Assembly: GCA_021738385.1 (NCBI GenBank)
Contig: JAIPCF010000016.1
Location: 1 to 41,965, forward strand
Direction of reading: 5' to 3'
Length of the DNA stretch: 41,965 nt
DNA from: Sulfuritalea sp.
GTDB taxonomy: Bacteria; Pseudomonadota; Gammaproteobacteria; Burkholderiales; Rhodocyclaceae
The notes under the pieces are model-generated. The model did no database searches. It was not told the DNA's origin and saw only the letters and a list, made by a program, of their open reading frames with translations. A program made the position numbers and the translations under genes. Positions 5,414 through 36,401 of the stretch are shown here, piece by piece. The first letter of the stretch is position 1; every line of letters starts with the position of its first letter.

Positions 5414-5968
5414 ATGAAAGCTTCGCGCCGACCACCCGGCTCATTGGTGGCCCTGCTCGCCAGTTCAACCCTGGTGCTCAACGCCTGCGGTGTGCTGCCC
5501 TTTGAGACACGCGCACACAGGCCGGCGCCAGTCAGGGCGAAAGTCGGCGATGGCGATACGGCGGCCGCCGCCGCCGTGCGCGCTGCCAACGGCAAGGCCA
5601 ACGACGTGGTGCTGTTTGCGCTTGGCTTGATCGAAACCGGCTACCAGTTCGGCGGCAAAAATCCGGAAGCGGGCCTTGATTGCAGCGGTCTGGTGACTTA
5701 CGTCTTCAATAGGGCCGCCAATATCCCGCTCCACGGATCGGCCGCAGACCTGGCCCGGCAAGGAACCGCCGTACCGACCGAGCAACTGCGTCCCGGCGAC
5801 CTGGTGTTCTTCAACACCCGCAACCGGCCGCGCTCGCACGTCGGCATCTACATCGGCGACGATCGCTTCGTCCATGCACCCAAGACAAACGGCAAGGTGC
5901 GCACCGAAAGCCTCAAAAACCGCTGGTTCGCCGCGCGCTTTGAGGGAGGCCGGACCTATTTCGACTAG
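5414..5968 (+). CDS. NlpC/P60 family lipoprotein, probable peptidoglycan endopeptidase
   Basis: A 184-residue outer-envelope lipoprotein. It has a signal peptide with lipobox LNAC (lipidated Cys25), a low-complexity Ala-rich linker (residues 26-62), and an NlpC/P60 cysteine-peptidase domain with Cys90 in LDCSGLV, His143 in SHVGIYIG and His155 in FVHAPKTNG as the catalytic residues. Proteins like this (Spr/MepS type) cut D-Glu-diaminopimelate or cross-links in peptidoglycan. The linker-coding DNA at 5539-5563 contains a degenerate copy of the 26-bp interspersed repeat. Confidence 0.9.
   Translation: MKASRRPPGSLVALLASSTLVLNACGVLPFETRAHRPAPVRAKVGDGDTAAAAAVRAANGKANDVVLFALGLIETGYQFGGKNPEAGLDCSGLVTYVFNRAANIPLHGSAADLARQGTAVPTEQLRPGDLVFFNTRNRPRSHVGIYIGDDRFVHAPKTNGKVRTESLKNRWFAARFEGGRTYFD
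5539..5563 (-). repeat. 26-bp interspersed repeat, copy 1 (degenerate)
   Basis: On the minus strand this reads CGCCGT, four bases, then CCATCGCCGACTTTC: one mismatch in the central core relative to CCAGCGCCGACTTTT, and a changed last base. It lies in the sequence encoding the disordered Ala-rich linker of the NlpC/P60 lipoprotein. Confidence 0.7.
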
Positions 5969-6498
5969 GCGAACTTCTTACGATCAGTGACAGCCAGAAT
6001 CTGCAGGCTCGGAACTCAATGCGAGCTCAGATCGCAATTCAAGCCCAGGCTACCGGTTTACCGGTAGCCAAAATACGAACATCCGGGTATTCCATTGTCA
6101 CGTTCAAACCCGTAGCCTGATGCCAGTGTGATTGGCAAGTCAGATTTGAGGTATTCACCTTGGTCCGATCACCCGCTCCTACTCCAACCTCGCGCAATGC
6201 GGGGATTTCAATTCCGGCCTGAGCAATCTCGCCGGATTTTTTTGGCTTGTGGCTCCCGCTGACAGATACTGGATTGTTGGTCACGGCGAAAACCCGGATA
6301 CGAAAATACTTAGATCTCAAGTATCACGTATGATGCCGCGCTGAATCGCCCCAGGGCGAGGCTACCAGTCTCGCTCGCTTCGCTCGACTATCACCAGTCG
6401 CTCCGAACCTGCTATTTCACGTTAAAAGAGATGGGGCAATTAGGGGCTTGATCGCCTTTATGTATCCGTCCGCATTCACAACTGATACCATTTCAATC
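5969..6498. other. 530-nt intergenic region without a convincing gene
   Basis: No open frame here looks coding. A 93-codon minus-strand frame (6039-6320) has no start context and no recognisable family. The region holds a perfect 10-bp stem palindrome at 6048-6069, and around 6365-6390 a TCGCT-rich stretch able to fold (GCGAG-CTCGC). It could contain a small RNA or the remnant of a lost element. Its right end must contain the hemerythrin promoter. Confidence 0.5.
6048..6069. repeat. Perfect 10-bp inverted repeat
   Basis: GGCTACCGGT, a two-base TT spacer, and ACCGGTAGCC form an uninterrupted dyad. There is no T-run on either side, so it is not a standard intrinsic terminator. It could be a protein-binding dyad or a recombination site. 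Confidence 0.7.
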
Positions 6499-6900
6499 AT
6501 GATCAAATGGACCCCCGCCCTCAGCACCGGAGTTGCGTCGCTCGACGAACAGCATCAGCAGATTTTCCAATGGCTCACCGAGCTGGAGAATGCCGCGCTC
6601 GAAGAGCGCACGCTGTTCGGTGTTTATGCGATTACCCGGCTGAACCGCTACATGCGTGAGCACTTCTCCGAGGAGGAAGCCATGATGAAGTCGGTCGGCT
6701 ATCCCGATCTCGCCAGACACATACTTGAGCATGCCGAGTTTCGCGCAAAACTCGGCGAATTGCAGATCAAGTCCATCTCCGAGGATATTTCGATGGATAC
6801 CGTCAAATTTCTGCAAGTCTGGCTGACCAAACACATCACCAAGACCGATATGGCGTATGTGCCGTATTTGAATCTTGAAAAAGCGCCAGAAATCAGCTGA
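6499..6900 (+). CDS. Bacteriohemerythrin
   Basis: A 133-residue stand-alone hemerythrin, an oxygen-binding four-helix protein with a non-haem diiron centre. From ATG 6499 all seven iron ligands are present: His19 (DEQHQQIF), His55 and Glu59 (HFSEEEAMM), His74 and His78 (HILEH), His112 and Asp117 (HITKTD). An upstream in-frame TTG would add 17 residues that do not fit the family. Bacterial single-domain hemerythrins deliver or sense oxygen and sometimes nitric oxide. It is monocistronic here, upstream of two small proteins and the CRP/FNR-NarX fusion. Confidence 0.93.
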   Translation: MIKWTPALSTGVASLDEQHQQIFQWLTELENAALEERTLFGVYAITRLNRYMREHFSEEEAMMKSVGYPDLARHILEHAEFRAKLGELQIKSISEDISMDTVKFLQVWLTKHITKTDMAYVPYLNLEKAPEIS

Positions 6901-7126
6901 GTAGCCCTGAATCCGCCGACTCCGTCAGCCGCAAAAAGCTGGTCGGACCTGGGTCGAGCCGCAATGCAAATCGATGGTGAGCTTCGGGTTGCCAGCGGCG
7001 ACAAATAAAAAAAATGAATGAAAGGTAACCATGAGTCCGCCGACTCAATGATTCCGACGGGGCGTACCTTGTTGCTTCGGACGGAACGACATGATTCAAT
7101 TGACCGTCGGACCAAGGAGACCAATC

Positions 7127-7336
7127 ATGGAACTTACCGGAGCCACCTCACAGCAGGCTAGCAGTCTCGCCGCCCTTGCCGCTGCCAGCCAAAACTCACA
7201 GGCAGAAAAGAATGAAGCGGCCAAGCCCGCCCGCAATACGGCAGAAACACAACAGGTTAAATTGAATCAGGCCAATACAGAGAACCGGCCCACTCCTGGC
7301 GCCGCGACTGGAAGCATCATCAATACAAGCGCTTAG
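7127..7336 (+). CDS. Small protein with C-terminal GSIINTSA tail
   Basis: A 69-residue protein with a strong AAGGAGA ribosome binding site (7114-7120). It is Ala/Gln/Asn-rich, lacks a signal peptide or membrane segment, and ends in GAATGSIINTSA. The next gene ends in the closely similar GTVGSFINTRA. Size, composition and tail recall the YjfB putative-motility family of small proteins, but I cannot confirm that. The two genes are 28 nt apart and probably one operon. Function unknown. Confidence 0.72.
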   Translation: MELTGATSQQASSLAALAAASQNSQAEKNEAAKPARNTAETQQVKLNQANTENRPTPGAATGSIINTSA

Positions 7337-7364
7337 TTACCAGAGCGATGTTTGGAGCTGGATG

Positions 7365-7691
7365 ATGATCGCGATCGGAGCATCCGCGGTAACCTTATCC
7401 GTTGGTGCCGGTGCCGCGCCGGTCACCTCGGATGCCCAGCTCCTGCGCCTGGAAAAGGAGTTGTCCGATTGCGTCAATTGTGCGACTGCCAAGACCGCGC
7501 TGGGCAAGGCCAAGATTCTGGCCGTAGAAGCCAGGATCAATGCCCTCAAAGCACGTATGGAGGCGGCCGCGGCACGATCGCCGCGTGACGATGAGGCTGT
7601 GCAAACGCCTCAACTGAACCCTGTCCAGTCAAATCCCGACCAGCCCCTGACGAACGGTACTGTCGGCAGCTTCATCAATACCCGCGCTTAA
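7365..7691 (+). CDS. Small coiled-coil protein, FlxA-like, with GSFINTRA tail
   Basis: A 108-residue protein. Start chosen at ATG 7365 because GGAG (7354-7357) is spaced 7 nt from it; ATG 7362 is possible. After a Ser/Gly/Ala-rich N-terminus (MIAIGASAVTLSVGAGAA), residues ~25-67 form an amphipathic helical stretch (LLRLEKELSDCVNC...KAKILAVEARINALKARME) resembling FlxA-like proteins, which in enterics are under flagellar sigma-factor control. A Cys-x-x-Cys (CVNC) lies inside the helix break. The C-terminus GSFINTRA matches its upstream neighbour. The motility link is inference. Confidence 0.72.
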   Translation: MIAIGASAVTLSVGAGAAPVTSDAQLLRLEKELSDCVNCATAKTALGKAKILAVEARINALKARMEAAAARSPRDDEAVQTPQLNPVQSNPDQPLTNGTVGSFINTRA

Positions 7692-8106
7692 AAAATCCAA
7701 GCAGCAGCGTCAACTCGTGGGGTCCGAAGACCCTTGGTTTCTCAACTGGCGCAAATATCGGGCAATCGCTCTCCGCTGAAAACTCCAAACGCAAACGCTG
7801 CAACGCCGCAGCCGACTTTTCTCCTATCCGTGTCCAACCCTGAGAAATGGGGGCCGCACCAGCGCATACTCACCCGCGACCTTGATCAAAATCAAGGTGT
7901 ATCGGTTGCACGCACTATAGTTTGGCAGGTCACGCCGAAATGCCCGCTCACTTGCCTGAATCGTCGAACCTGCTGATACCGGCAAGCGCCAACTGCTCGC
8001 ACTTTGGGATGGTTGAACTGGAGTGACTGCTGCACCACGCTGACGCCGCCAGAGCGTCACGAAAATCAATGGCCCGCCTAGAGGCCGTAGAAGATTTGGA
8101 GGATAC
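7692..8106. other. 415-nt leader/control region of the CRP/FNR-NarX-like fusion
   Basis: No credible gene. It contains the FNR box and -10 element described at 7882-7921, then a leader of about 175 nt before the start at 8107 with GGAGGA at 8098-8103. The leader is long enough for post-transcriptional control, but no clear riboswitch fold was recognised. Confidence 0.6.
7882..7921 (+). promoter_or_regulatory. FNR/Dnr-type box and class II promoter
   Basis: TTGATCAAAATCAA (7882-7895) is a perfect match to the FNR consensus TTGAT-N4-ATCAA. A -10 hexamer TATAGT lies at 7916-7921, 30 bp centre-to-centre downstream, which places the box near -41.5 as in class II FNR-activated promoters. Transcription would start around 7930 toward the fusion regulator at 8107. 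The activator could be FNR/Anr or the downstream protein itself, since it carries FNR-like recognition residues. Confidence 0.82.
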
Positions 8107-9627
8107 ATGCCATTCGAAAGCGATATTGACCGAAAGCGAGTGCTGAAAGAGCTTCCGCTGTTTGCCAAGCTCCCATCCGACATTATCAACGAACTGACCC
8201 TTGGCTCCCGCAGCGAGACATTTGATCGCGGCGAGGCGATATTTCGGTCGGGTGACCCTGCCAGGCAGATGTTTGTTCTGCTGTCGGGGCAGGTCAAGCT
8301 GTCCTTGTCGTCCAATCGAGGCAGCGAGAAGATTCTCGACGTGATTGGTGCCGGGCGCTCATTTGGTGAGGCAGAACTGTTCGGGCCTCGCGTCTATCTC
8401 GCTGGCGCGGAAGCGGTAAAACCCTCCCAACTGCTGTGCATCGCCGGGGAATCTGTTCGCCGCGTCATGACCATGGATTCACGCGTCGCAGAGCGCATTG
8501 TCTCAATACTGGCGCATCGCCAGATTCAGATGGAAGCCGAGCTTGCCGCGAGCCATTTTTGTTTTGGCAGCCATCGCCTGCTGGAGTTCTTCTTGCAGCT
8601 TGCGGGTCCAAATCTGGCCAAGACCGGTGAAACCCGGGTGACGCTGAGCATCAGCAAACGGCTGCTGGCCTCTCGATTCGACATGCAACCCGAAACCCTG
8701 TCGCGCGCGTTGCGTGATCTCACCGCCGCCGGATTGATTTCAGTAGACAAAACCCACATCAGTCTGAAAAACGCCAATATCCAGCGATATCTTGAGGATG
8801 AATCCTCGGAACAGTCGATCATCCTGCCCGAGCGCTTGCGCATGCCGCACACGGGAGAAAACGGCTACGCGGTCGTTAGCTCGGTTTCCAACACGATTGA
8901 GCAAATTGCCGTCGCCCCGCCGATCCGCGATTCGATCAACAAGGCCGGCCGTCAGCGCATGCTTTCGCAACGCATGGCCAAGTCATGGTTGATGCTGGAG
9001 CGAGGCATCATGTCTCGTCGTGCGCGACTGATCATCAAGCAATCGATAGAAATGTTCGACCGACAAATGATAGAACTTGCCGCCGAGGTGAGCGAACCCG
9101 TGTGTCGTGCCGCCTGTGATGAACTCCGGCACCTATGGCCGAGTTACCGACTGCTGCTTGATTCGGATCCGACCCCAAAAGGCGCGCAGGAACTGTTCAG
9201 CATCAATGAAGATGTTCTTGCCGCGGCCCAACACCTGGTGTTGAGCCTGGAGAGGGCGGATGGCACGCCGCTGGGCAGAATGGTCAATATGGCCGGCCGC
9301 GAGCGCATGCTGTCGCAACGCGCAGCCAAGCTCTTCATGTTCCAGAACATGGGCATTCAGGTATCCAGATGCCAGGATGAACTGCAGCATACCCTGGAAG
9401 AATTTTCGACCACGTTGGCACAACTTTGCTCGACGGCGCACGACCAGCCCAGGATCAAAATCGAACTGGACAAAGTGGCGCAACACTGGGATGCGCTGCA
9501 ATCGGCAATACGCAGTGACCGGGAGTTGAACTTCTCTCCCGTTGCCCGCAAGGTGTTCACCACCAGCGAGAACCTGTTGCAGCGCATGGACACTGCAGTC
9601 AATTTGTACGCCGGCTTGCCCAATTGA
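8107..9627 (+). CDS. CRP/FNR-family regulator fused to two NarX/PilJ-type sensor repeats
   Basis: A 506-residue protein of unusual architecture. Residues ~15-135 are a cyclic-nucleotide-binding-type beta roll (GEAIFRSGDPARQMFVLLSGQVKLSL, RSFGEAELFG). Residues ~150-225 are a winged helix-turn-helix whose recognition helix PETLSRALRDL keeps the E-xx-SR pattern that in FNR reads TTGAT. Residues ~268-380 and ~384-500 each start with a P-box-like motif, NKAGRQRMLSQRMAK (278-292) and NMAGRERMLSQRAAK (394-408), of the A-G-x-x-R-M-x-S-x-R type found in the nitrate/nitrite-sensing NarX/NarQ periplasmic domain and in PilJ (PF13675). There are no membrane segments, so sensing would be cytoplasmic. The Fe-S cysteines of FNR are absent; the N-terminal half has only Cys111 and Cys152. 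Inferred role: nitrate/nitrite-responsive activator, probably autoregulated through the upstream FNR box. Confidence 0.85.
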   Translation: MPFESDIDRKRVLKELPLFAKLPSDIINELTLGSRSETFDRGEAIFRSGDPARQMFVLLSGQVKLSLSSNRGSEKILDVIGAGRSFGEAELFGPRVYLAGAEAVKPSQLLCIAGESVRRVMTMDSRVAERIVSILAHRQIQMEAELAASHFCFGSHRLLEFFLQLAGPNLAKTGETRVTLSISKRLLASRFDMQPETLSRALRDLTAAGLISVDKTHISLKNANIQRYLEDESSEQSIILPERLRMPHTGENGYAVVSSVSNTIEQIAVAPPIRDSINKAGRQRMLSQRMAKSWLMLERGIMSRRARLIIKQSIEMFDRQMIELAAEVSEPVCRAACDELRHLWPSYRLLLDSDPTPKGAQELFSINEDVLAAAQHLVLSLERADGTPLGRMVNMAGRERMLSQRAAKLFMFQNMGIQVSRCQDELQHTLEEFSTTLAQLCSTAHDQPRIKIELDKVAQHWDALQSAIRSDRELNFSPVARKVFTTSENLLQRMDTAVNLYAGLPN

Positions 9628-9664
9628 GCGCTGTTTGACGGCGGGTTTCAGCGACAAACAGCGC
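9628..9664 (+). terminator. Hairpin after the fusion regulator, possible terminator
   Basis: GCGCTGTTTG (9628-9637) and CAAACAGCGC (9655-9664) form a perfect 10-bp stem with a 17-nt loop, starting one base after the stop codon. There is no T-run, so it may act as an RNA 3'-end stabiliser rather than a true intrinsic terminator. Confidence 0.55.
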
Positions 9665-9689
9665 CCTTGGACAGAGCTGTATCTGCAGC

Positions 9690-9727
9690 CCTGATTTGCG
9701 GCCAAAAACACTCCCGATCAAATCAGG
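9690..9727. repeat. Second perfect inverted repeat downstream of the fusion regulator
   Basis: CCTGATTTG (9690-9698) and CAAATCAGG (9719-9727) are exact reverse complements around a 20-nt loop. No T-run follows. It could be a binding dyad or a second transcript-end hairpin. Confidence 0.5.
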
Positions 9728-9970
9728 AACAATGAAGTCTGGCGGGGCCGGTGACCGACTGATTGACTATCCACTCTCAGATAATTGGTGAAAGTCGAGC
9801 AAAGTCTGTCGGGATGCATCCGTCGAATCTTGCTCAACATTTCCAAGGTTTTCGCCCGCTTTTTCCTGACAAATAATTAAGCAGGAATAGTGGAGCATCT
9901 GAAGTCAATTTTCGGTCAGCTTCTACTCTTTGGGCTCATGAACGGCGTCCAATCCAGTTGGCTTGGCTGA

Positions 9971-10003
9971 ATGGGTGTAAATGGGTGTAGTATTGGCACC
10001 CAT
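9971..10003 (+). promoter_or_regulatory. Fic promoter with three ATGGGTG half-sites
   Basis: ATGGGTG occurs at 9971-9977 and 9981-9987, ten bp apart on the same DNA face, and inverted as CACCCAT at 9997-10003, overlapping the preferred start codon. TAGTAT at 9988-9993 could be a -10 element. The spacing suggests an operator, possibly for the Fic protein's own C-terminal winged helix. Confidence 0.6.
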
Positions 10004-11045
10004 GATCCGATCCCATTCCCTACAGATAACTCCCGAGATCCTTAGCCTCATCGCCGGCATCGATGAATTCAAGGGCGCTTGGCGCGCGCTCGGCAACCTG
10101 GCGCCGGACCGGCTCTCTGCATTGCTCCGCGTTGCCACCATCGAGAGCATCGGCTCGTCCACCCGCATCGAGGGCAGCCGACTGTCGGACCGAGAAGTCG
10201 AGCGCCTGCTGTCCAATCTGCAGATCAAGTCCTTCGCCACCCGCGACGAACAGGAAGTGGCGGGCTACGCCGAGGTCATGGAACTGATCTTCTCGTCCTG
10301 GCAGGACATCGCGCTGACCGAGAACCACATCAAGCAACTGCACCGTGATCTGCTGACCTGGAGTGAGAAGGACGCCAGGCATCGGGGCGACTACAAGACC
10401 TCCACCAACAGCGTGGTCGCCTTCGACGAGAATGGCAAACAGTTGGGCGTGGTCTTCGAAACCGCCACGCCCTTCGACACGCCGCGCCTGATGACCGAGC
10501 TGGTCACCTGGTTCAACGACGAGCGTGCCGCCGCGCGGCTCCATCCGCTGTTGCTGATATGCATCTGGGTCGTGGTGTTTCTGGAGATCCACCCCTTTCA
10601 GGACGGCAATGGCCGTCTGAGCCGGGCGCTGACCACCTTGTTGCTGCTGCAGGCTGGCTATGCCTATGTGCCCTACAGTTCGTTCGAAAGCGTGATCGAG
10701 CAGAGCAAGGAAGCCTATTACCTCGCGCTGCGGCAGACGCAAGGGACGATCCGGACCGATTCTCCGGACTGGCAGCCCTGGCTGGTCTTCTTCCTGCGCG
10801 CGCTGGCCGAGCAGGTACGACGCCTGAATCGCAAGGTGGAGCGCGAAAAGATCGTGCTAGCCGTTTTGCCAGAGCTCTCGCTGCAGATCGTCGAGTTCGC
10901 GCGGGAGCATGGACGCGTGACGATGGGGGACGCGATGCGGCTGACTGGCGGCAATCGCAACACGCTCAAGCAGCATTTCCGGGCCTTGGTCAATCGCGGC
11001 CAGCTCACGCAGCACGGGGCTGGCCGGGGTGTCTGGTATGACTGA
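10002..11045 (+). CDS. fic: Fic family protein (probable AMP-transferase, class II) with C-terminal winged helix
   Basis: A 347-residue Fic enzyme, a family that transfers AMP or related groups to target hydroxyls. The active-site motif HPFQDGNGRLSR (HPFxDGNGRxxR) is intact near residue 196. The N-terminal inhibitory helix motif S-x-x-x-E-G is at residues 53-58 (STRIEG), making it a class II, self-inhibited Fic. The last ~70 residues form a winged helix-turn-helix (VTMGDAMRLTGGNRNTLKQHFRALVNRG), so it may bind DNA. ATG 9981 would give seven more residues but would place the operator-like repeats within the coding region. The upstream half-sites suggest autoregulation. The target is not predictable. 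It precedes a DUF3883 gene by 56 nt. Confidence 0.9.
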   Translation: MIRSHSLQITPEILSLIAGIDEFKGAWRALGNLAPDRLSALLRVATIESIGSSTRIEGSRLSDREVERLLSNLQIKSFATRDEQEVAGYAEVMELIFSSWQDIALTENHIKQLHRDLLTWSEKDARHRGDYKTSTNSVVAFDENGKQLGVVFETATPFDTPRLMTELVTWFNDERAAARLHPLLLICIWVVVFLEIHPFQDGNGRLSRALTTLLLLQAGYAYVPYSSFESVIEQSKEAYYLALRQTQGTIRTDSPDWQPWLVFFLRALAEQVRRLNRKVEREKIVLAVLPELSLQIVEFAREHGRVTMGDAMRLTGGNRNTLKQHFRALVNRGQLTQHGAGRGVWYD

Positions 11046-11101
11046 ATTTTTTCGAGACTGCGCTGCGGGTTCGGCGATCAGTGACAGAGGGAGGGACACC
11101 A

Positions 11102-11941: not shown

Positions 11942-11971
11942 GCCGGTCTCCATCGCTGCGACTTGATCTGC

Positions 11972-11997
11972 TCGCCGTCCCGCCAGCGCCGACTTTT
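11972..11997 (+). repeat. 26-bp interspersed repeat, copy 2
   Basis: CGCCGT, four bases, then a perfect CCAGCGCCGACTTTT core (11983-11997). It lies in the 103-nt gap after the DUF3883 gene. Confidence 0.9.
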
Positions 11998-12044
11998 CAC
12001 TCGTTTGCTGCGCCCACCGGAACAAGTCCCGCGCCCGAATCGCC

Positions 12045-12781: not shown

Positions 12782-12835
12782 GGTGCTTTGGGGCGATGCT
12801 TAGTTGTCAGTCACGGGTAAATTGATGGACAAATT

Positions 12836-15535: not shown

Positions 15536-15549
15536 TCGCACGCACGTGT

Positions 15550-15583: not shown

Positions 15584-15609
15584 GAAACTCGGCGGTGGCG
15601 ATACGGCGA
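15584..15609 (-). repeat. 26-bp interspersed repeat, copy 3 (degenerate)
   Basis: On the minus strand CGCCGT, ATCG, then CCACCGCCGAGTTTC: three differences from the consensus. It lies between the mltA stop codon and the amt enhancer region. Confidence 0.65.
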
Positions 15610-17019: not shown

Positions 17020-17919
17020 ATGACCGACCCCTCCCATCCATTTGCGCCTTTGATAGACCGCCTCGACGCGCTGTTCGACCGCATCGAGGCAGCGCTACCG
17101 CCACCGTTGCCTCCCACCGACTGGTCGGCTACGGCGTTTCGCTGGCGCACCCGTGCCGGTCGCGGCTGGCTGGAGGCCGTCAAGCAGCCACACCGAATCC
17201 GCTTTGAAGACTTGCAGGGTGTCGACGATCAGAAGCAGCGCATCGCCCAGAACACCAAGCAGTTCGTCGCCGGGCGCAGTGCCAACAACGTATTGCTGAC
17301 CGGCGCGCGCGGCACCGGCAAGAGCTCGCTGGTCAAGGCCGTACTCACCCAGTTTGCCGCCAAGAAACTACGCCTGATTGAAGTGGACAAGGACGATCTG
17401 GTGCATTTGCCGGAGATTGTCGACCTGATTGCCGATCGGCGCGAGCGCTTCATCATTTTCTGCGACGACCTGTCCTTCGAATCGGGCGAGCCCGGTTACA
17501 AGGCGATGAAGAGCATTCTCGACGGCTCGATCAGCGGCATGCCGGACAACCTTCTGGTTTATGCGACCTCCAATCGCCGCCATTTGATGCCGGAAAAAAT
17601 GTCCGAAAACCTCGAGACAAAATACAACGCGGACGGCGATATCCATCCCGGCGAAACCACGGAAGAAAAGGTCTCGCTCTCGGAGCGTTTCGGCCTCTGG
17701 CTGTCCTTCTATCCTTTCGGCCAGGACCACTACCTGGAAATCTGCGCTCACTGGATGGCCGAGTTCGGCATGTCGCAGCAACAGATTGCCGCTGCGCGCA
17801 GCGAAGCCTTGCAGTGGACTTTGATGCGCGGCTCACGCAGCGGCCGCGTGGCCTGGCAGTTTGCCCGCGACTATGCGGGGCGCCATGTCAGGAAAGCGCG
17901 CACCGGTAAATCAGTTTGA
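17020..17919 (+). CDS. DUF815 family AAA+ ATP-binding protein
   Basis: A 299-residue P-loop ATPase of the DUF815 group. Walker A GARGTGKSS lies near residue 90, Walker B FIIFCDDLSF around 147, and an ATSNRRHL sensor segment follows. The function is not known; the gene is a regular neighbour of mutT in beta-proteobacteria. ATG 17020 is chosen over upstream frames because the family starts with a short helical segment (HPFAPLIDRLDALFDRIEAALPP). The stop codon overlaps the TTG start of the MutT-ThiE gene, so the two are translationally coupled. Confidence 0.88.
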   Translation: MTDPSHPFAPLIDRLDALFDRIEAALPPPLPPTDWSATAFRWRTRAGRGWLEAVKQPHRIRFEDLQGVDDQKQRIAQNTKQFVAGRSANNVLLTGARGTGKSSLVKAVLTQFAAKKLRLIEVDKDDLVHLPEIVDLIADRRERFIIFCDDLSFESGEPGYKAMKSILDGSISGMPDNLLVYATSNRRHLMPEKMSENLETKYNADGDIHPGETTEEKVSLSERFGLWLSFYPFGQDHYLEICAHWMAEFGMSQQQIAAARSEALQWTLMRGSRSGRVAWQFARDYAGRHVRKARTGKSV

Positions 17920-18875
17920 AACTCACCGAAGTCGCCGCTGCGGTCATCGAGCGCCCGGGCGAAGATGGCGCTATCGAGTTCCTGCTCGGTCAGCGCGCGC
18001 CCGGGAGCGTTTACCAGGGCTACTGGGAATTTCCCGGTGGCAAGGTGGAAGCAGGCGAAACGCCGCATGCCGCGTTAGTGAGGGAACTGCGCGAAGAGTT
18101 GGGCATCGAAGTGCTGCGCGCCGATCCCTGGTTGCGACGCGAACATGTTTATGAGCATGCCCACGTCCGGCTGAATTTTTTTCGCGTGCGCCAATGGCAT
18201 GGCGAGTTGCAAGACCATGTGCATAGCGCTCTCTCCTGGCAGCGCGCCGAATTTCCGACAGTTCCGCCAACGGTTGCGCCGATGCTGCCGGCCAACGCCC
18301 CGGTGCTCGCCGCGCTGGCTCTGCCGGATTTTTATGCCATCACCCATGCCGCAGAAATCGGCATCGACGCCCAGCTACTGGCGTTGGCGCACGCGCTGGA
18401 AGGCGGCCTGAAGCTGGTGCAGTTACGCGAACCAACACTGGACGCGGCGCGGCGCTCGGCCTTTGTCCATGCTGCCGTCGATCTGTGTCATCAGTTCGGT
18501 GCGCGCGCGCTGGTCAATGGCGATGCGGCGCTGGCCGAAGCGTCTGGTGCCGACGGGCTGCACTTGCCGGCGCGGCAACTTGCTTCCTGCAAAGTGCGGC
18601 CCGATTTCCCGCTGGTGGCGGCGTCATGCCATACACGTGCAGAGCTGGAGCGCGCGGCTGAATTGGGCTGCGACTTCACGGTGTTCGGCCCGGTACAGGC
18701 CACGGCCAGCCACCCGTGGATCGAGGGCATCGGCTGGGAGGCTTTTGCGTCCCTGCTTGCCGTGTCACCAGCGCCGACTTTTGCGCTGGGCGGGTTGTCT
18801 GCCGCCGATCTGGATACCGCGCAGCGCGCCGGCGCTCACGGTATCGCCGCGGTACGCGCGGCCTGGGCGGATTAG
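17916..18875 (+). CDS. mutT: MutT-type Nudix hydrolase fused to a ThiE-like domain
   Basis: A 319-residue two-domain protein. Residues 1-~130 are a Nudix 8-oxo-dGTP hydrolase with a complete Nudix box, GKVEAGETPHAALVRELREELGI, which sanitises oxidised nucleotides. Residues ~135-319 are a thiamine-phosphate-synthase-like barrel (LPDFYAITHA, LKLVQLREP, DGLHLPARQL, FTVFGPVQATASHP, FALGGLS). The fusion is common in beta- and gamma-proteobacteria; whether the second half makes thiamine phosphate is doubtful because other ThiE genes usually exist. It starts at TTG 17916 inside the DUF815 stop codon. The segment 18757-18782 holds a copy of the 26-bp repeat. Confidence 0.9.
   Translation: MKLTEVAAAVIERPGEDGAIEFLLGQRAPGSVYQGYWEFPGGKVEAGETPHAALVRELREELGIEVLRADPWLRREHVYEHAHVRLNFFRVRQWHGELQDHVHSALSWQRAEFPTVPPTVAPMLPANAPVLAALALPDFYAITHAAEIGIDAQLLALAHALEGGLKLVQLREPTLDAARRSAFVHAAVDLCHQFGARALVNGDAALAEASGADGLHLPARQLASCKVRPDFPLVAASCHTRAELERAAELGCDFTVFGPVQATASHPWIEGIGWEAFASLLAVSPAPTFALGGLSAADLDTAQRAGAHGIAAVRAAWAD
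18757..18782 (+). repeat. 26-bp interspersed repeat, copy 4, inside MutT-ThiE
   Basis: A perfect CCAGCGCCGACTTTT core at 18768-18782, preceded by TGCCGT-GTCA. The 24 nt 18759-18782 are identical to 33285-33308 in fmt, though the two are read in different frames. The core is followed by GCGCTGG, making a local hairpin with CCAGCGC. Confidence 0.9.
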
Positions 18876-29077: not shown

Positions 29078-29170
29078 TTGCGAGCCGAATCAAGGAAATA
29101 GCTGCGATTGTGACCCAAAACAGTGCAAATCTCAACCGAGCGACGCAGATACCCGGCGATGCACCGCCAT

Positions 29171-29659
29171 CTAGTTGAACAGAACGCGTGTGAATTCCTC
29201 GTCTACACCGAGCTCTTCGTCGTCGCTGTCCTCAACGAGGAGTTCCTCGAGTATCAGCGCATCGACTTCATGACGATAGCGCCAGATTACTGCCAGTACG
29301 ATCACCTTCAGGCGGTCGAGACTGACCTCGGCATCGGGAAGGGCCAAAGCGCGCTCGATGATGGTTTCGCGCAATGGAGCGTCGACAGCGTCGTGTTGCT
29401 CAAGAAAAGTAATGAAGCCACGACACGCGGCAGGCAGCCTCTCCAGTTCTTCATCGTTGTAGATCCGCACGGCGCCCTCTACAAGCGGACTGCTGCAACG
29501 CCCGCTATCTTCTCCTGCCAGGCCATCGAGCCAGGACAATGCGGCCGTGATGTCGTCATTGCCAAAACCTGCCGCAGAAAGTTTCTTGGCCAGCACGGCC
29601 GGTTCCGGGCAGGCATCGGGAAGGTAGTTTTCGAACAGATAAACCAGAATATCAATCAT
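29171..29659 (-). CDS. smg: Smg protein (DUF494)
   Basis: A 162-residue Smg family protein (MIDILVYLFENYLPDACPE...FITFLEQHDAVDAPLRETIIERALAL...LKVIVLAVIWRYRHEVDALILEELL). The function is unknown; it accompanies dprA in most beta- and gamma-proteobacteria. Its ATG overlaps the dprA stop by 4 nt. Confidence 0.92.
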   Translation of the reverse strand: MIDILVYLFENYLPDACPEPAVLAKKLSAAGFGNDDITAALSWLDGLAGEDSGRCSSPLVEGAVRIYNDEELERLPAACRGFITFLEQHDAVDAPLRETIIERALALPDAEVSLDRLKVIVLAVIWRYRHEVDALILEELLVEDSDDEELGVDEEFTRVLFN

Positions 29660-30765
29660 GAGGGTGTATGAAGTCTTTGGTAGAGGCCACCGGGCAATTG
29701 TGCAACGCGGCCGACGAGTTCCATGGGCAACAGCATGGCAAGAAGGTCGGCGGGCGTCAAGCCGCAGCGTGCAGAAAGCATGTCTATGTTGCAGGGAGTT
29801 TCACCCAGCATTGCAAGCACTTGCTCTTCCCTGTCAGTGCTACTCACCAGGGTAGCAGCAGTTTCTGCAGTCACGGCCGGTTTCGGCGGCGATTTCCAGC
29901 GCAATTCTTCTAGAATATCCTGGGCCGACTCGACCAGCTTTGCTCCCTGGCGAATCAATTGATGGCAGCCACGCGACAGCGGTGAATGTATCGACCCGGG
30001 AATGGAAAATACTTCACGCCCCGCTTCAGCCGCCAGCCGCGCCGTAATCAGAGAGCCGCTGCGGGTGGCCGCCTCGACTACCAGACAGCCCATCCCGAGT
30101 CCCGCGATGATGCGATTGCGGCGCGGAAAATTGCCCGCCAGCGCTGGCGTACCAAGCGGGAATTCACTGATGACAACACCGTTTTCCGCGATCTTGCGCG
30201 CCAGTTCCTCGTTGCGGGCCGGATAAAGACGGTCGGCTCCGGTACCGATGACGGCTACGGTGCTGGCCGCTGTCGCCAGCCCTCCGCGATGTGCAGCGGC
30301 GTCAATGCCCAGCGCCAAACCGCTGACAATCGTCAAACCGGCCTCGCCCAGCACCTTCGAGAATGCCTCGGCATCGCGCAAGCCTTGCGCCGTCGCGTTG
30401 CGACTGCCAACCACGGCCAGCATCGGACGATTAAGTGCGGCGACCTTGCCTTTTGCGTAGAGCAGCACAGGTGGGTCGTCCGAGCTCAACAGGCTCTGCG
30501 GGTAATCAGAGTCCGCCAGAGTCAGCAACTGGTTTACCGGATGATCCGCCCAATCAAGTGCGGCTTCCAATTCCGAGTTGCACTCGTGCCCCAGCAAACG
30601 CTCGGCCAACACCGAACCGATAACTGCAGAGAGCGCCCCGTGTCCGGCTTCAAAAATGGCTTGTGGCAGGCCAAAGGCCTTGAGCAAATTGCGCTGGGAT
30701 TCGCCACCGACTCCAGGAACCAGCGTTAAGCGGAGCCAGGAAGCAAGTTCTTGGCGGTCCGCCAT
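29656..30765 (-). CDS. dprA: DNA-processing protein DprA
   Basis: A 369-residue DprA, which loads RecA on incoming single-stranded DNA during natural transformation. An N-terminal helical domain is followed by the Rossmann-like core (LAVVGSRNATAQGLRDAEAF, TIVSGLALGIDAAAHRGGL, SEFPLGTPALAGNFPRRNRIIAGL, VVEAATRSGSLITARLAAEAGREVFSIPGS) and a C-terminal winged helix (NIDMLSARCGLTPADLLAMLLPMELVGRVAQLPGGLY). ATG 30765 (MADRQELASWLRL) fits the family better than a 20-residue extension. Coupled to smg. Confidence 0.95.
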   Translation of the reverse strand: MADRQELASWLRLTLVPGVGGESQRNLLKAFGLPQAIFEAGHGALSAVIGSVLAERLLGHECNSELEAALDWADHPVNQLLTLADSDYPQSLLSSDDPPVLLYAKGKVAALNRPMLAVVGSRNATAQGLRDAEAFSKVLGEAGLTIVSGLALGIDAAAHRGGLATAASTVAVIGTGADRLYPARNEELARKIAENGVVISEFPLGTPALAGNFPRRNRIIAGLGMGCLVVEAATRSGSLITARLAAEAGREVFSIPGSIHSPLSRGCHQLIRQGAKLVESAQDILEELRWKSPPKPAVTAETAATLVSSTDREEQVLAMLGETPCNIDMLSARCGLTPADLLAMLLPMELVGRVAQLPGGLYQRLHTPS

Positions 30766-30793
30766 GATGTGCTCTTTGTACGTTCCGCCGGCG

Positions 30794-31810
30794 TCAGGGC
30801 GTGCGGACGGTGTCGCCAATGACAACCGGGTGGATCGAGTTCATAACCAGCGCATACGATACCCGGTCAAAAACCCGAAACACAAACAACAGACCATTGC
30901 GCGAATCCGGCAGCTGGTAGTCGGTCTTTTCGCCTTCGAAGCGGTTTCTTACATTGGCTCCCGCCAGATCGACAGCAAGCACATGGCCGGGTTCCATTCC
31001 GTCTGCTTTGCCGCGATTCAGCGTAATCACCGACTGCGGGCCGCCGAAATTCACGCCACTGTAAATGGACAATACCCTGGCATTGATCTTTTTCTTCGGG
31101 GCGCGCGGAATATAGCTGGGCACATCCTGCGGCGGAGCCGCCAGCAGCCGGTCGTCACGGACGATTTCCTGTTTGGATGTGATTACCGTGAAACTTGACG
31201 GGTTGCCATCCCTGGTCATGCGCGCAGTACCAAGGAACACTGCTTCGTGCCCCAGCGTTTCCTGGGTGTCGGGATCGAGCAAGGCCTTGCCGGGACGGAA
31301 AATCTGCCAAACCTTGTGCCGGTCTTTGACCTCCGTCGTATAGATGTTGTCGCCGGCCCCAGCGATCACGCGGTTGTCCTGCAGGGCGACAACACGGGGA
31401 GCACTGTCGAGCGCGGCTTTATCAAGCACACGCGGCTCGCTGAGAAATGGCTCAATGTCCTGCGGCGGGATGGTGGGAATGCCTTTTCTGAGCGGCTCGA
31501 CGTACTCGTGCCGCTGCTGTTTGATTGTCACCAGTTTCAGGTGCGGCTCATTGCCACTCTTGTCGAGCACGATCACCTGGCCGGGATAGATGCGCTGCGG
31601 ATTTTTGATATCTTCGGCATTCAGCTTCCACAATTCGCCCCAACGGTAGGGGTTCTTGAGGAACTTGGCAGCAATGCCCCACAAGGTGTCGCCACGAACC
31701 ACGACATGACGGTCAGGCGCGCCGTCGGCCATATCCTTGGGTTGAATTCCTTGAGCGAGCACCAGAGTGCTTGAAATGCAGATGAGCAGCGCAGATATAA
31801 TGCGACGCAT
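30794..31810 (-). CDS. LysM-domain secreted protein
   Basis: A 338-residue exported protein: signal peptide MRRIISALLICISSTLVLAQG, then one LysM domain at residues ~34-82 (HVVVRGDTLWGIAAKFLKNPYRWGELWKLN...NPQRIYPGQVIVL) that binds peptidoglycan. The rest (AKKKINARVLSIYSGVNFGGPQSVITLNRG, GMEPGHVLAVDL) is a C-terminal domain conserved in the protein that precedes dprA in beta-proteobacteria. AGGAGA precedes ATG 31810. Transcribed with dprA and smg; divergent from def, sharing a 106-nt promoter region. Confidence 0.9.
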   Translation of the reverse strand: MRRIISALLICISSTLVLAQGIQPKDMADGAPDRHVVVRGDTLWGIAAKFLKNPYRWGELWKLNAEDIKNPQRIYPGQVIVLDKSGNEPHLKLVTIKQQRHEYVEPLRKGIPTIPPQDIEPFLSEPRVLDKAALDSAPRVVALQDNRVIAGAGDNIYTTEVKDRHKVWQIFRPGKALLDPDTQETLGHEAVFLGTARMTRDGNPSSFTVITSKQEIVRDDRLLAAPPQDVPSYIPRAPKKKINARVLSIYSGVNFGGPQSVITLNRGKADGMEPGHVLAVDLAGANVRNRFEGEKTDYQLPDSRNGLLFVFRVFDRVSYALVMNSIHPVVIGDTVRTP

Positions 31811-31916
31811 GGCTTGATCTCCTGGCCGAGTGTCTGTGTGGATGGCGAACCACCCGAGTATCTGCCGGATTCTGCCCGACAATTCCCCCAGCATCAATTC
31901 TTTCAAGAGCGCTTTC

Positions 31917-32420
31917 ATGGCCTTATTGCAGATTTTGCGTTATCCCGACCCCCGGTTGCACCAGAAAGCAGCCCCGGTCAAAGCGGTGGATGAGAGCATC
32001 CGCCAACTCGCGTCCGACATGGCCGAAACCATGTATGCCGCACCAGGCATAGGTCTTGCCGCGTCTCAGGTTGATCGGCATGTGCGTCTTATTGTGATCG
32101 ACATCTCCGATGACAGATCGCAGTTGCAAACTTTCATCAATCCGGAACTTCTGGAGACTTCGGGCGAAATCGAGGGTGAAGAAGGTTGCCTGTCCGTGCC
32201 TGGCATCTACGACACCGTCAAACGGGCCAGCCACGTCAAGGTCCGCGCGCTTGGACTCGATGGCAAATCTTTTGAAATGGAGGCTGACGAATTGTTGGCT
32301 GTCTGTATTCAGCACGAGATTGATCATCTGGAGGGCAAGGTCTTTGTCGACTACCTGTCGCGCCTGAAGCGGGAGCGCATCAAGAATAAACTGCTCAAGC
32401 AGGCGCGCGAGACTTTTTAA
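31917..32420 (+). CDS. def: Peptide deformylase
   Basis: A 167-residue metalloenzyme that removes the formyl group from new proteins. Motif 1 GIGLAASQ (44-51), motif 2 EGCLS with metal ligand Cys91, motif 3 QHEIDH with His133, catalytic Glu134 and His137. The stop overlaps the fmt start (TAATG), so deformylase and formyltransferase are coupled as in most bacteria. Confidence 0.96.
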
Positions 32421-33337
32421 TGAAACTGGTCTTCGCCGGTACGCCGGATTTTGCCGCAAGCGCGCTTGAAGCAATTCTCGCTGCCGGCCATGAAGTCGTG
32501 CTGGTGCTGACCCAGCCCGACCGGCCCGCCGGGCGCGGCATGAGCTTGCAGGCCTCCGCCGTCAAGAAACTGGCGCTGAGCCACGGTATTCCAGTGTATC
32601 AACCAGAGCGCCTCAAGGACCCGGCGACGCACGAACCGATACGCGCGGCCTGCCTAGAACACGCTGCCGAGCTGATGGTGGTCGCCGCCTACGGCCTGAT
32701 TCTGCCGCAGGCCGTGCTCGACTTGCCAAGCAAGGGCTGCATCAACATCCATGCTTCGCTACTGCCTCGCTGGCGTGGTGCGGCCCCGATTCATCGCGCC
32801 ATTGAAGCAGGCGACACACAGACCGGCATCACCATCATGCAAATGGACGCGGGACTGGATACCGGGCCGATGTTGCTCGCCGAGGCCACTGAGATCGCGG
32901 CGGATGACACCACCGGCAGCCTGCACGATCGTCTGGCAACTCTGGGCGGCAAACTGGTGGTCGATGCGCTGGCGCGCTTCGACCAACTGATCCCGACCAC
33001 CCAACCCGAAACCGGTGTCACCTACGCCAACAAGATAGACAAGACTGAGGCCAAACTCGGCTGGGAGCAGCCCGCCGCGGTCCTGGCCCGCAAGATACGC
33101 GCCTTCAATCCCTTTCCCGGCGCGGTGATACCGCTTGCCGGTGAGCAAATCAAGGCTTGGCGCGCTGAAGTCGTGAGCGGTAACGGGCGCCCAGGGCAGG
33201 TGCTGGCGGCCGACGCGAAAGGTATCGTCGTCGCCTGCGGTGAGGGCGTGCTGTGCATCACCGAACTGCAAAAACCCGGCGCTCGCCGTGTCACCAGCGC
33301 CGACTTTTTGCACGGCTCCTCGCTGAAGCCGGACTGA
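32420..33337 (+). CDS. fmt: Methionyl-tRNA formyltransferase
   Basis: A 305-residue enzyme that formylates initiator Met-tRNA with 10-formyl-tetrahydrofolate. [14 protein letters not shown], the catalytic region [24 protein letters not shown], and [18 protein letters not shown] are intact; the C-terminal tRNA-binding domain begins at ~residue 205. The end of that domain ([12 protein letters not shown]) is encoded by a copy of the 26-bp repeat (33283-33308), in frame and tolerated by the fold. Confidence 0.95.
33283..33308 (+). repeat. 26-bp interspersed repeat, copy 5, inside fmt
   Basis: CGCCGT, GTCA, then a perfect CCAGCGCCGACTTTT core (33294-33308). It encodes RRVTSADF in Fmt; rsmB copy 7 encodes RRTTSADF in the same frame. 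Confidence 0.92.
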
Positions 33338-33451
33338 AACCGGGCTGCACACCAGGGCCGCTATCCGGTGAGCACCGTGCCGCCCTTGCAATCCGCCTCC
33401 AGATTGCAGGAGTCGACAAACAATTCCAGCATTGATCCGGCTTCCAAACAC

Positions 33452-34165
33452 TCAACCGGTGCGCAGCTTCGCAACGTTCCGATTCATCCAGTGCCGCACG
33501 ACATGCTGATACAGCCAGCGTTTGAAGCCGGACAGGTTGGCACCGTGTCTTGCGTAGAAGGCATCCGGACTGTCGAATAGGCCGAAGTCGTGATTGATGC
33601 CGTCTTTCTGGATGTAGGTATCGGTGCCGATCCATTCGACTGGCGGATTGCCCAGATTCGGCGTCGCCGCACCGTAGCCGCAAAAGCGCGTGGCAGCAGG
33701 ATGGCGCTGCTGCAGGCTGGCCAGATAGCGCGCGTCGAGGATGAAGCCTTCGAGATTGATCCAGCGCCCCTCGAAATAGATTTCAACCCAGCTATGGATG
33801 ATGCTGCGCGGCGCGAGCAAAAAGGCCAGGCCGGTAATGGCCCCGCGTTGCAGCGTTTTGTCGATGGTGAAGCCGTGAAAGCGGCAGAGTATGCCGACGG
33901 CGCGCAGCAAGGCCATCAGCAGGGTGCCTTTGGTGTTGCACTGGCCGATACCGTCGGCCAACACGCGCGAGGCGGACAGATCGTCCGACGCGTTGTAACC
34001 AAAGGCGATTTCATTGCGGACGAAATCATAGGCCGCGCCGATTCGCTCGAACTCGGGCAGAACATGCCAGCCACGTTCGTCGATCAACTTTTGCAAGGCA
34101 GGATGTCGGAAATCCAGCAAAGGGGTGACAGCCAGGAGTTTTTGCGGTGATGTATCGGGTTTCAT
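33452..34165 (-). CDS. Transglutaminase-like protein
   Basis: A 237-residue cytoplasmic protein of the transglutaminase/protease-like superfamily. The catalytic Cys76 (DGIGQCNTKGTLLMALLRAVGI) and His124 (IIHSWVEIYFEGRWINLEG) are clear; the third residue, usually Asp 15 positions after His, is Glu139 here. No signal peptide. Substrate unknown. It is divergent from the MerR gene and the MerR-type promoter (34193-34223) reads toward it, so it may be metal-induced. It sits between fmt and rsmB, where these genes are usually adjacent or separated by htpX. Confidence 0.82.
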   Translation of the reverse strand: MKPDTSPQKLLAVTPLLDFRHPALQKLIDERGWHVLPEFERIGAAYDFVRNEIAFGYNASDDLSASRVLADGIGQCNTKGTLLMALLRAVGILCRFHGFTIDKTLQRGAITGLAFLLAPRSIIHSWVEIYFEGRWINLEGFILDARYLASLQQRHPAATRFCGYGAATPNLGNPPVEWIGTDTYIQKDGINHDFGLFDSPDAFYARHGANLSGFKRWLYQHVVRHWMNRNVAKLRTG

Positions 34166-34192
34166 TGTCGTGCTCCGAATGATGGAGCCACC

Positions 34193-34223
34193 ATTTCAAA
34201 CCCTGAAGCAACTACAGAGTCAA
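34193..34223 (-). promoter_or_regulatory. MerR-type promoter of the transglutaminase-like gene
   Basis: On the minus strand TTGACT (-35, 34218-34223) and TGAAAT (-10, 34193-34198) are 19 bp apart, the long spacing distinctive of MerR-controlled promoters. The spacer holds the dyad ACCCTGAAGCAACTACAGAG (34200-34219, extending one base), close to CadR/PbrR/ZntR operators. The predicted start is ~20 nt upstream of the transglutaminase ATG. Confidence 0.75.
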
Positions 34224-34262
34224 GCGCTTAAAATCAAATTCCCGTCCACCCGGTCAGTCCCC

Positions 34263-34703
34263 ATGAAAATTGGTGAAATCGCGCAAGCTGCGGCTTGCCC
34301 CGTCGAAACCATTCGGTACTACGAACGCGAAGGCCTGCTACCGCCTACAGTGCGCAGTAGCGGCAACTATCGAATCTACTCGGCGATTCACTTCGAGCGT
34401 TTGAATTTCATTCGACGCTGTCGTTCGCTAGACATGAGCCTGGGTGAAATTCGCAGCCTGTTCCAGTTGCGCGATTCAGAAACGCCGGATTGCCGTGCGA
34501 TTGATGATCTGGTCAATACGCATCTGTTGCACGTTGAAAACCGGATGCGCGAATTGCGCGCCCTGAAAAAACAACTGCGCGAACTGCTCGATGCCTGCGC
34601 CTCACCGGGTCAAATGGCGGCTTGCGGCGTGCTCAAGGGGCTATCGACAGGCACTGCGAAACCGGGCAGCAAGCTCTCCCATCTGCCCGGGACCCACCGT
34701 TAG
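34263..34703 (+). CDS. MerR-family Cd(II)/Pb(II)-responsive regulator (CadR/PbrR-like)
   Basis: A 146-residue MerR regulator: helix-turn-helix MKIGEIAQAAACPVETIRYYEREGLLPP, then the dimerisation helix and a metal site with Cys77 (DCRAID), Cys112 (DACASPG) and Cys121 (AACGVLKGL), the three-Cys set of PbrR/CadR. It should twist the divergent promoter at 34193-34223 on binding metal. No efflux ATPase or metal chaperone gene is adjacent; the only divergent target is the transglutaminase-like gene. Confidence 0.87.
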   Translation: MKIGEIAQAAACPVETIRYYEREGLLPPTVRSSGNYRIYSAIHFERLNFIRRCRSLDMSLGEIRSLFQLRDSETPDCRAIDDLVNTHLLHVENRMRELRALKKQLRELLDACASPGQMAACGVLKGLSTGTAKPGSKLSHLPGTHR

Positions 34704-34723
34704 CTGCGATCCCGCGCCGGGCC

Positions 34724-34973
34724 GGCGGTTTAGCCAGCACAAAAAGTCGGCGCTGGCGATACGGCGATTCACTGCCGCAGGTAGCGCCTCACCGACCAGA
34801 AACCCACCCATGACAGCCACAATCAGAGGATTGATGTCCTGCACGGCAATCAGACCGGGTAACCGCATCACCGCAAACGCGACGAACAAATGAGCGACCA
34901 GCACGGCCTGGATATCTTCCGCCAGACTGTGTGGGATATCTGTTGTGCCGGCAGTGCGAATCACGAGAACCAA
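34724..34973 (-). pseudogene. Possible YitT-like membrane-protein remnant
   Basis: A minus-strand frame encodes TDIPHSLAEDIQAVLVAHLF followed by VAFAVM, resembling the N-terminal HSLAEDxQAL segment and first membrane helix of YitT-family proteins, then unrelated hydrophobic sequence (NPLIVAVMGGFLVGEALPAAVNRRIASADF). It has no ribosome site and runs through the repeat. Probably a decayed or chimeric fragment; uncertain. Confidence 0.35.
34742..34767 (-). repeat. 26-bp interspersed repeat, copy 6 (consensus copy)
   Basis: On the minus strand this is CGCCGT, ATCG, then a perfect CCAGCGCCGACTTTT core, with an extra T at each end. I use it as the reference copy. It lies between merR and rsmB. Confidence 0.92.
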
Positions 34974-35060
34974 AGCGGGACACTAAGGAATGAAGTCTAG
35001 TCGATGGGGTTGTTTGCCGCCGAATCAATCCCCATGCGAACAGGCTGGTATTCTTGGCCA

Positions 35061-36401
35061 ATGCTGATGCTTCCTCCCCTTGCTGAAAGCCTCTATGAGG
35101 CCGCTGGTTTGATTGCCGCTGTACTCAGCGGGCGTAATTTCGATGCCGCGCTGTCACGCACAGGTCTATCCGGACAACTGCGTGCTGCCGCCATGGATTT
35201 GGTCTACCCGACCTTACGCGCCTTCGGCCGCGGCGATTTCCTGCTCGGCCAGTTGCTCGAGCGGCCCTTGAAAGACAAATCTGCACGCGGCCTTTTGCTT
35301 GCAGCGCTAGCGCGTCTTGAGGCACGTCCGGATGACGCACCCACGATCGTCAATCAAGCGGTGAAGGCTGCGACACGACTGGCCCATGGCCAGTTCAAAG
35401 GTCTGGTCAATGGCGTGTTGCGTAGTTTTCTGCGACGACGCGAAGAATTGCTGGCGGCAGCCGACGCCGATCCGGTTGCGCAATGGCGGCATCCGGCTTG
35501 GTGGATTGAGCGCTTGCGGAAAGATCATCCGGCGCACTGGCAGAGCATCCTCGCCGCGGGTAACACGCATCCACCCATGTGTCTGCGTATCAATCGCCGC
35601 CGTACCACCAGCGCCGACTTTTTGAGCGAGCTGGCCGCCGATGGCATTGCCGCGCGCGCGCTAGATGACGACGCGATTCTTCTTGCCAGACCGGTTCCGG
35701 TGGATCGAATTCCGGGATTTGCCGAAGGCTTGTGTTCGGTACAGGACTGGGGTGCACAAGCAGCTGCCCATTTGCTCGATCTGGGCAGCGGCATGCGCGT
35801 ATTGGATGCCTGCGCCGCACCCGGTGGCAAGACGGCACACTTGCTCGAAATCGCGGACATCGAACTGACGGCGCTGGATGTCGATGATCAACGGACAACC
35901 CGCATCACAAGCAATCTGAGGCGTCTTGGACTCACGGCCAATGTTCAGGTAGCTGATGCATGTGCGGTTGATGCGTGGTGGGATGGCCACGTCTTTGACC
36001 GTGTTCTGGTCGATGCGCCCTGTTCGGCCTCGGGCGTGGTGCGCCGACACCCGGACGCAAAATGGCTGCGGCGCAAAACCGACCTTGCCGGATTCGCCAC
36101 AACCCAGAAGACTATCGTCGATGCGCTGTGGCGAACTCTCGCCCCAGGTGGCAAAATGCTTTATGCAAGCTGTTCGGTGTTTGAAGAGGAGAATGCCCAC
36201 CAGGTAGAAGCCTTCATTGGCCGCCATGCCGATGCCCGGCAACTGCCGACGCAATTGCAAAGCTATGGTCCAAAGATCGGTCCTGAATGCGTTACAACAA
36301 CCGATACCACTATCCGTAGCACAACACGCGACAACCAACTGCAACTATTACCCGATGCCGAACATGACGGCTTTTATTACGCGCTGCTGCAAAAAACTTG
36401 A
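35061..36401 (+). CDS. rsmB: 16S rRNA (cytosine-967-C5)-methyltransferase RsmB
   Basis: A 446-residue RNA m5C methyltransferase. The N-terminal ~150 residues are a NusB-like RNA-binding domain (AIVNQAVKAATRLAHGQFKGLVNGVLRSFLR type). The methyltransferase half has SAM motif I VLDACAAPGGKTAHLLE, the acidic LTALDVD, motif IV VDAPCSASGVVRRHPD with one active-site Cys, and the second Cys in LYASCSVFEEEN. ATG 35061 removes a 19-residue doubtful extension. A repeat copy at 35597-35622 encodes RRTTSADF. Confidence 0.94.
   Translation: MLMLPPLAESLYEAAGLIAAVLSGRNFDAALSRTGLSGQLRAAAMDLVYPTLRAFGRGDFLLGQLLERPLKDKSARGLLLAALARLEARPDDAPTIVNQAVKAATRLAHGQFKGLVNGVLRSFLRRREELLAAADADPVAQWRHPAWWIERLRKDHPAHWQSILAAGNTHPPMCLRINRRRTTSADFLSELAADGIAARALDDDAILLARPVPVDRIPGFAEGLCSVQDWGAQAAAHLLDLGSGMRVLDACAAPGGKTAHLLEIADIELTALDVDDQRTTRITSNLRRLGLTANVQVADACAVDAWWDGHVFDRVLVDAPCSASGVVRRHPDAKWLRRKTDLAGFATTQKTIVDALWRTLAPGGKMLYASCSVFEEENAHQVEAFIGRHADARQLPTQLQSYGPKIGPECVTTTDTTIRSTTRDNQLQLLPDAEHDGFYYALLQKT
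35597..35622 (+). repeat. 26-bp interspersed repeat, copy 7, inside rsmB
   Basis: CGCCGT, ACCA, then a perfect CCAGCGCCGACTTTT core (35608-35622). It encodes RRTTSADF in RsmB, in the same reading frame as the fmt copy. Confidence 0.9.

Follow-up and report, generated by a model that had tools for sequence, protein, structure and literature searches.

A 25-bp interspersed word in Sulfuritalea and related genera as a candidate DNA-uptake sequence

Why should one short sequence recur again and again, on both strands and both inside and between genes, along a bacterial chromosome? This question is raised by a 41,965-nt stretch of DNA from Sulfuritalea sp. (Rhodocyclaceae; assembly GCA_021738385.1, contig JAIPCF010000016.1, positions 1 to 41,965; hereafter the window), in which a preliminary description made from the letters alone had noticed seven copies of an interspersed repeat. 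The genome of the window (G000) comprises 3.34 Mb in 162 contigs and is 82% complete. Most measurements on chromosomal copies fit an uptake sequence, and we propose, with a probability of about 0.6, that the word evolved separately, in a betaproteobacterial clade, as a DNA-uptake (self-recognition) sequence differing from the DNA uptake sequence (DUS) of Neisseriaceae and the uptake signal sequence (USS) of Pasteurellaceae. In the natural-transformation machinery, a receptor at the cell surface or pilus tip would prefer fragments carrying the 25-bp word, better-matching fragments would be taken up and recombined more often, and matches would accumulate and be kept wherever the local sequence tolerates them.

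The conserved word reads CGCCGT-VYCR-CCAGCGCCGACTTTT, in which CCAGCGCCGACTTTT is a 15-bp core. A search with the pattern CGCCGTN4CCAGCGCCGACTTTT gave seven matches in the window at up to three mismatches, four of them exact, compared to a mean chance expectation of 0.00 in 100 dinucleotide shuffles, and the core is exact in five of the seven. All seven places and the five intact cores of the preliminary description were thus recovered, with several of its coordinates off by one. The length of 26 bp given there was corrected to 25 bp, because the base directly 5' of the word shows only a weak T preference, and the four positions regarded as a free spacer turned out to be constrained, being V (rarely T), mostly Y, mostly C, and R. 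The information content amounts to ~38 bits in G000 (59 sites) and ~37 bits in a second genome, G002 (61 sites), both figures being somewhat inflated by the three-mismatch threshold. The word is non-palindromic and occurs on both strands.

Across G000, 595 copies were counted at up to three mismatches (320 forward and 275 reverse), bearing out the earlier expectation of hundreds, while the pattern read backwards gave none. The reversed pattern and five shuffled ones each matched 0-1 times in 400 kb sampled from G000 and from G002, and the mismatch spectrum in 400 kb of G000 is sharp, with 16, 24, 15, 4, 2 and 15 sites at 0 to 5 mismatches once copies in tandem arrays (see below) are set aside. 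The word is present in all 31 genomes of the genus, with 46 copies in G016, 164 in G021, 223 in G025 and 324-715 in the rest, G004 having 715; 30 sampled genomes from outside the genus carry 0-5 copies, and the reversed control over all 61 genomes gave 0-3. The restriction to one genus that this count suggested was ruled out in a scan of the family (199 genomes from 68 genera, up to two mismatches), in which 79 genomes had a match and at least 90 copies were found in seven genera, namely g1 (6/6 sampled genomes), g32 (1/1), g43 (5/5), g62 (1/1), g69 (1/1), g70 (4/4) and g88 (4/4). Two genomes of g47 gave 22 and 1, and the other genera 0-17. The sampled genome of g69 (G098) uses a dialect with T for C, with 139 exact copies of CCAGCGTCGACTTT; this T variant occurs 18, 11 and 8 times in three other genomes and 0-2 times in the remaining ones.

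The three copy-poor genomes G016, G021 and G025 are placed inside the genus in a tree of Fmt, the inner branches of which are mostly unresolved, which makes loss of the word likelier than a late gain. Over-represented 10-13-mers in 505,580 bases of the eroded G016 revealed no recognisable replacement word, and de novo 11-mers in samples of 60-200 kb from each of six outgroup genera included none resembling the word. Some low-copy genomes carry their copies in clusters, such as five within 41 kb of G135 (C1:1461265-1502243), and others on contigs C104 of G109 and C50 of G108; these clusters suggest DNA acquired from carrier species. In the Rhodocyclaceae metagenome-assembled genome SKW65 (L123), 21 kb around fmt contain near-matches at 2445, 4777 and 18733, one with one mismatch and two with three, which are possibly another dialect. 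A related genus without the word (G034, L211-L220) has its own abundant, unrelated GC-rich repeat around TGTGGGAGCGGCGGCC, often more than once per locus.

Intergenic and coding calls were made with an open reading frame (ORF) caller written for this analysis. Intergenic positions account for 28 of 61 copies in G002, where 22% of the sequence is non-coding (p 3e-5), and for 28 of 66 non-array copies in G000, where 17% is (p 8e-7). Overall, 42-46% of non-array copies are intergenic and 54-58% coding, the latter on both gene strands and in three main reading frames. A strand polarity by replichore, for which an all-plus listing in G002 had spoken, was rejected since 20 stretches of this genome show both strands. 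Three copies of the window are intergenic: an exact one ~30 bp past the stop of a NOV_C-domain gene (11973..11997, plus strand), one with three mismatches between the ammonium transporter and MltA genes (15584..15608, minus) and another exact one between a MerR-type regulator gene and rsmB (34742..34766, minus). The other four lie inside genes, as had been described. One with two mismatches (5539..5563, minus) is antisense within an NlpC/P60 gene (5414..5968, plus), upstream of the domain, and one with a single mismatch (18758..18782, plus) falls in the thiE half of a gene fusing NUDIX and thiamine monophosphate synthase (17916..18875, plus). Exact copies are found near the C terminus of methionyl-tRNA formyltransferase, encoded by fmt (copy at 33284..33308, gene at 32420..33337, both plus), and within rsmB (35598..35622 in 35004..36401, both plus). 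In agreement with the preliminary description, the latter two are read in the same frame, as RRVTSADF and RRTTSADF respectively, and the thiE copy in another (AVSPAPTF). The transformation gene dprA (29656..30825, minus) is indeed near repeat copies, of which it is no part, but this proximity carries little weight because copies are spread over the whole genome. A different repeat, TCGACTATCACCAGTCGCTCCGAACCTG with similar upstream sequence, is shared by the window (6384-6401) and another contig of the same genome (L074, 9111-9128).

How did such copies come to lie inside genes? The peptides of 71 coding copies from G000 and G002 were aligned to 20-kb stretches, the window and named loci. A gap in the motif segment was observed in 2 of 88 outside-genus alignments, which derive from 10 queries (70 rows belong to named loci aligned at the fmt or rsmB site, and one row, L111 or Sulfuritalea sp. 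SJ561, is actually a genus member), and in 3 of 16 within-genus pairs. This near-gapless alignment to relatives lacking the word indicates that the coding copies arose by substitution in place, which overturns the earlier statement that the repeat has entered coding genes as well as the suggestion of a templated mini-repeat. PMC1626085 used the same gap test to rule out insertion as the origin of USS. At sites other than that in fmt, positions turn over: of the 13 within-genus pairs aligned without a gap, 12 show four or more mismatches, and in 11 of these the partner is the copy-poor G016 or G025.

The individual sites agree with this picture. The 29 fmt orthologues recovered from the genus (none was obtained from G001 and G013) all carry the word at the same codon positions, 25 with up to three mismatches and four with four, whereas the orthologues of six other genera all align ungapped without the word (8-15 mismatches); the site shows no gap in 53 named loci, L111 included. 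The motif codons rank first of 290 8-codon windows for codon identity (0.885 vs 0.645 elsewhere), and being the most codon-uniform window of the gene they point to a constraint acting on DNA, as had been suspected, and not to ordinary conserved protein sequence. At the thiE site, 30 of 30 alignments are ungapped; 18 of 27 genus orthologues have up to three mismatches and the other nine 4-7, compared to 9-13 in three outgroups, and T is found in 26 of the 27 where the three outgroups show V or I. At the rsmB site, five of the 12 other genus orthologues covered have up to three mismatches and four outgroups have 9-11. Four of the 12 contain 6-7 extra residues in this segment, all without the word, so that the length differences run opposite to those expected if the word had been inserted.

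A search of 23 genus genomes gave nine exact inverted pairs of the word, spread over 8 of them, and 14 other genomes gave none; at up to three mismatches, 400 kb of G002 contain two close pairs. Each of the eight distinct pairs examined is predicted to form a hairpin (-43 to -57 kcal/mol). Seven of the eight are flanked by convergent ORFs, measured stop to stop and 100 codons or longer, which end within 22 bp on either side. These contexts are bare ORFs and not called genes, and ORFs in other frames also span the pairs. Such pairs between convergent ORF ends form a putative terminator-like arrangement. This arrangement is described as frequent for DUS and USS in PMC12616744 and PMC3630211.

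Tandem arrays were observed nearly exclusively in G000, where 20 of 86 copies in a 442-kb sample belong to them. They consist of a 28-bp unit carrying the word as a GAGTTTT variant, and are regarded as a lineage-specific expansion. Arrays were noted at L064 5838-6077, L076 1-133 and L073 1-60 and on contigs C25, C29, C60 and C109 of G000, several of them at contig ends; three sampled arrays are followed by hairpins of the GCCCGACGC-GCGTCGGGC-like and GCGAC-AGTCGC kind. Close same-strand pairs occur in two of 31 genus genomes, G000 and, at three places, G014, mostly as the GAGTTTT variant.

Exact copies were also found in 94 stretches of virus-labelled contigs (L368-L461), at least two of which come from one contig. 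Each stretch had been selected for one copy, and by shared DNA the stretches form 38 groups, one with 47 members. Apart from the selecting copies, 882 kb contain 72 further sites, a density about half that of chromosomes. The free-position preferences at 135 distinct viral sites are much as in chromosomes, and the viral sites are therefore the same word. At least one stretch, L447 with six sites, has integrase, DNA methyltransferase and ParB-like genes; the stretches could be free phages, prophages or host flanks. Site spacings recur between several viral contigs, L440 and L442 for instance sharing 293 and 704 bp, so that some phage lineages may conserve the sites.

If the word serves uptake, transformation proteins should be considered. 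Of the 31 genus genomes, 29 have a ComEC above the curated cut-off, G021 having a contig-edge fragment and G030 a weak match only, and DprA was found in 28 (not in G001, G004 and G013). Pilin-type proteins are present in both genomes searched, G002 and G016.

Several of the results weigh against an uptake sequence. The copy-rich G004 (715) has no detected DprA, an absence that is likely to be an assembly gap because its fmt, to which dprA adjoins in other genomes, sits at a contig start. The copy-poor G016 (46) and G025 (223) keep ComEC and DprA, and G021 (164) has DprA and the ComEC fragment. No pilin lost in G016 was recognised, since all 11 pilin-type proteins of G002 have a look-alike there by eye. 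With these parts retained in the eroded genomes, erosion is not explained by their loss, and a changed receptor specificity is possible. A search of PDB with one minor pilin of G002, the only pilin searched, gave 19 matches at E <=0.01 of the PilA/PilE type, none named ComP, and an NCBIfam scan of two pilins (PilE-like and FimU-like by our label) gave generic pilin matches only; no receptor was thus found in the G002/G016 comparison or in these searches of few pilins. Furthermore, each genome has just 0-2 exact inverted pairs, in contrast to the high numbers described for DUS genomes (PMC3630211). A weak G-rich-strand bias in G002 (39 vs 22 of 61, p 0.04) is not predicted, nor are virus-borne copies by chromosomal drive alone, and a word of ~37-38 bits looks longer and stricter than the uptake words described.

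Some of these points would be accommodated if the word were the site of a chromosomal protein for nucleoid organisation, segregation, replication or repair, bound asymmetrically about every 6 kb, a reading that we consider unlikely but worth keeping in view. It would account for the high copy number on near-even strands, the copies inside and between genes, the weak leading-strand bias (39:22) and the fact that G016 and G025, with their few copies, keep both ComEC and DprA. Most dimeric binding sites are palindromic. The word is not, and the 20 stretches of G002 show no strong replichore polarity; its patchy occurrence in 7 of 68 genera and its near-complete loss in G016 fit a dispensable trait better than an essential one, and neither a base-level dialect nor terminator-like inverted pairs would be predicted. 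The viral copies could instead point to a self mark of another discrimination system (defence, restriction-like or phage packaging), carried by phages to pass as self, as might be read from the exact copies in 94 stretches, the chromosome-like preferences of the 135 sites and the gene content of L447. This is improbable, given that the stretches were copy-selected and redundant, that further sites are thinner than on chromosomes (72 in 882 kb), and that prophages or flanking host DNA could account for them.

Insertion of a mobile or templated mini-repeat at hundreds of sites, for which the 28-bp tandem arrays of G000 might speak, is very improbable: coding copies, to which this argument applies, align almost ungapped to relatives without the word, the rsmB orthologues with 6-7 extra residues (4 of 12) are those lacking it, and close same-strand pairs are confined to 2 of 31 genus genomes and mostly of the GAGTTTT variant. 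That the word is ordinary conserved protein sequence or chance can be practically dismissed, although the protein segments on which coding copies fall can be aligned, since the word is read in three main frames on both gene strands, 42-46% of non-array copies are intergenic, shuffled patterns give 0-1 matches and the fmt codons are frozen. Of the roles suggested earlier, that of a DNA-uptake signal is supported, and that of a nucleoid-protein site is less likely.

A wider proposal, which we put forward tentatively and would not rate as probable, is that the word is a third, independent 25-bp self-DNA code in betaproteobacteria outside Neisseriaceae, kept by transformation drive, with dialects that would partition gene exchange, traceable islands in genomes lacking it, and adoption by phages. 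If an uptake code is present, this third case would allow an independent test of how such codes arise and are lost, because full, eroded and base-changed sets occur within one family, and the word would serve as a sequence marker by which gene flow could be traced and phages assigned to their hosts. Should a chromosomal protein be the reader, an asymmetric site of 25 bp present hundreds of times would itself be unusual.

Compared to known genomic words, Chi, KOPS (FtsK orienting polar sequences) and matS are likewise over-represented genome-wide, but they are shorter and strand-polar or macrodomain-restricted, whereas the word described here has 25 bp and is near strand-even. Repetitive extragenic palindromic sequences (REPs) and their REP doublets forming hairpins (REPINs) are interspersed in hundreds of copies too; REPs, being palindromes that a transposase copies, differ from this non-palindromic word, the tested coding copies of which arose by substitution. 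Uptake words are known from two families only, as stated in PMC12616744 (2025), and no report of the word, or of an uptake word in the Rhodocyclaceae group, was found in a search of mostly open-access literature excluding bioRxiv preprints. The DUS of Neisseriaceae, with ComP as its receptor, resembles the present word in its hundreds or more of copies on both strands, in and between genes, in its dialects, in inverted pairs at gene ends and in a betaproteobacterial host. The 7-mer GCCGTCT of the DUS GCCGTCTGAA is also seen in some copies here, which may be chance, and the DUS inner core 5'-CTG-3' appears on the opposite strand only (CGCTGG), too short to be telling. Unlike the continuous DUS words of up to ~13 bp, the present one is bipartite over 25 bp (core CCAGCGCCGACT), its copies are fewer than the thousands given for Neisseria, and its exact inverted pairs are few. 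From the USS of Pasteurellaceae it differs in its unrelated sequence, with neither the inner core GCGG nor CCGC in the consensus, in strong constraint over most of the 25 bp and in belonging to another bacterial class. With the USS it shares an asymmetric core followed by a T-run, an origin by substitution, a discontinuous motif (reaching ~30 bp in USS) and a similar placement, 54-58% of non-array copies being coding here and 65% in H. influenzae, as given in PMC1626085.

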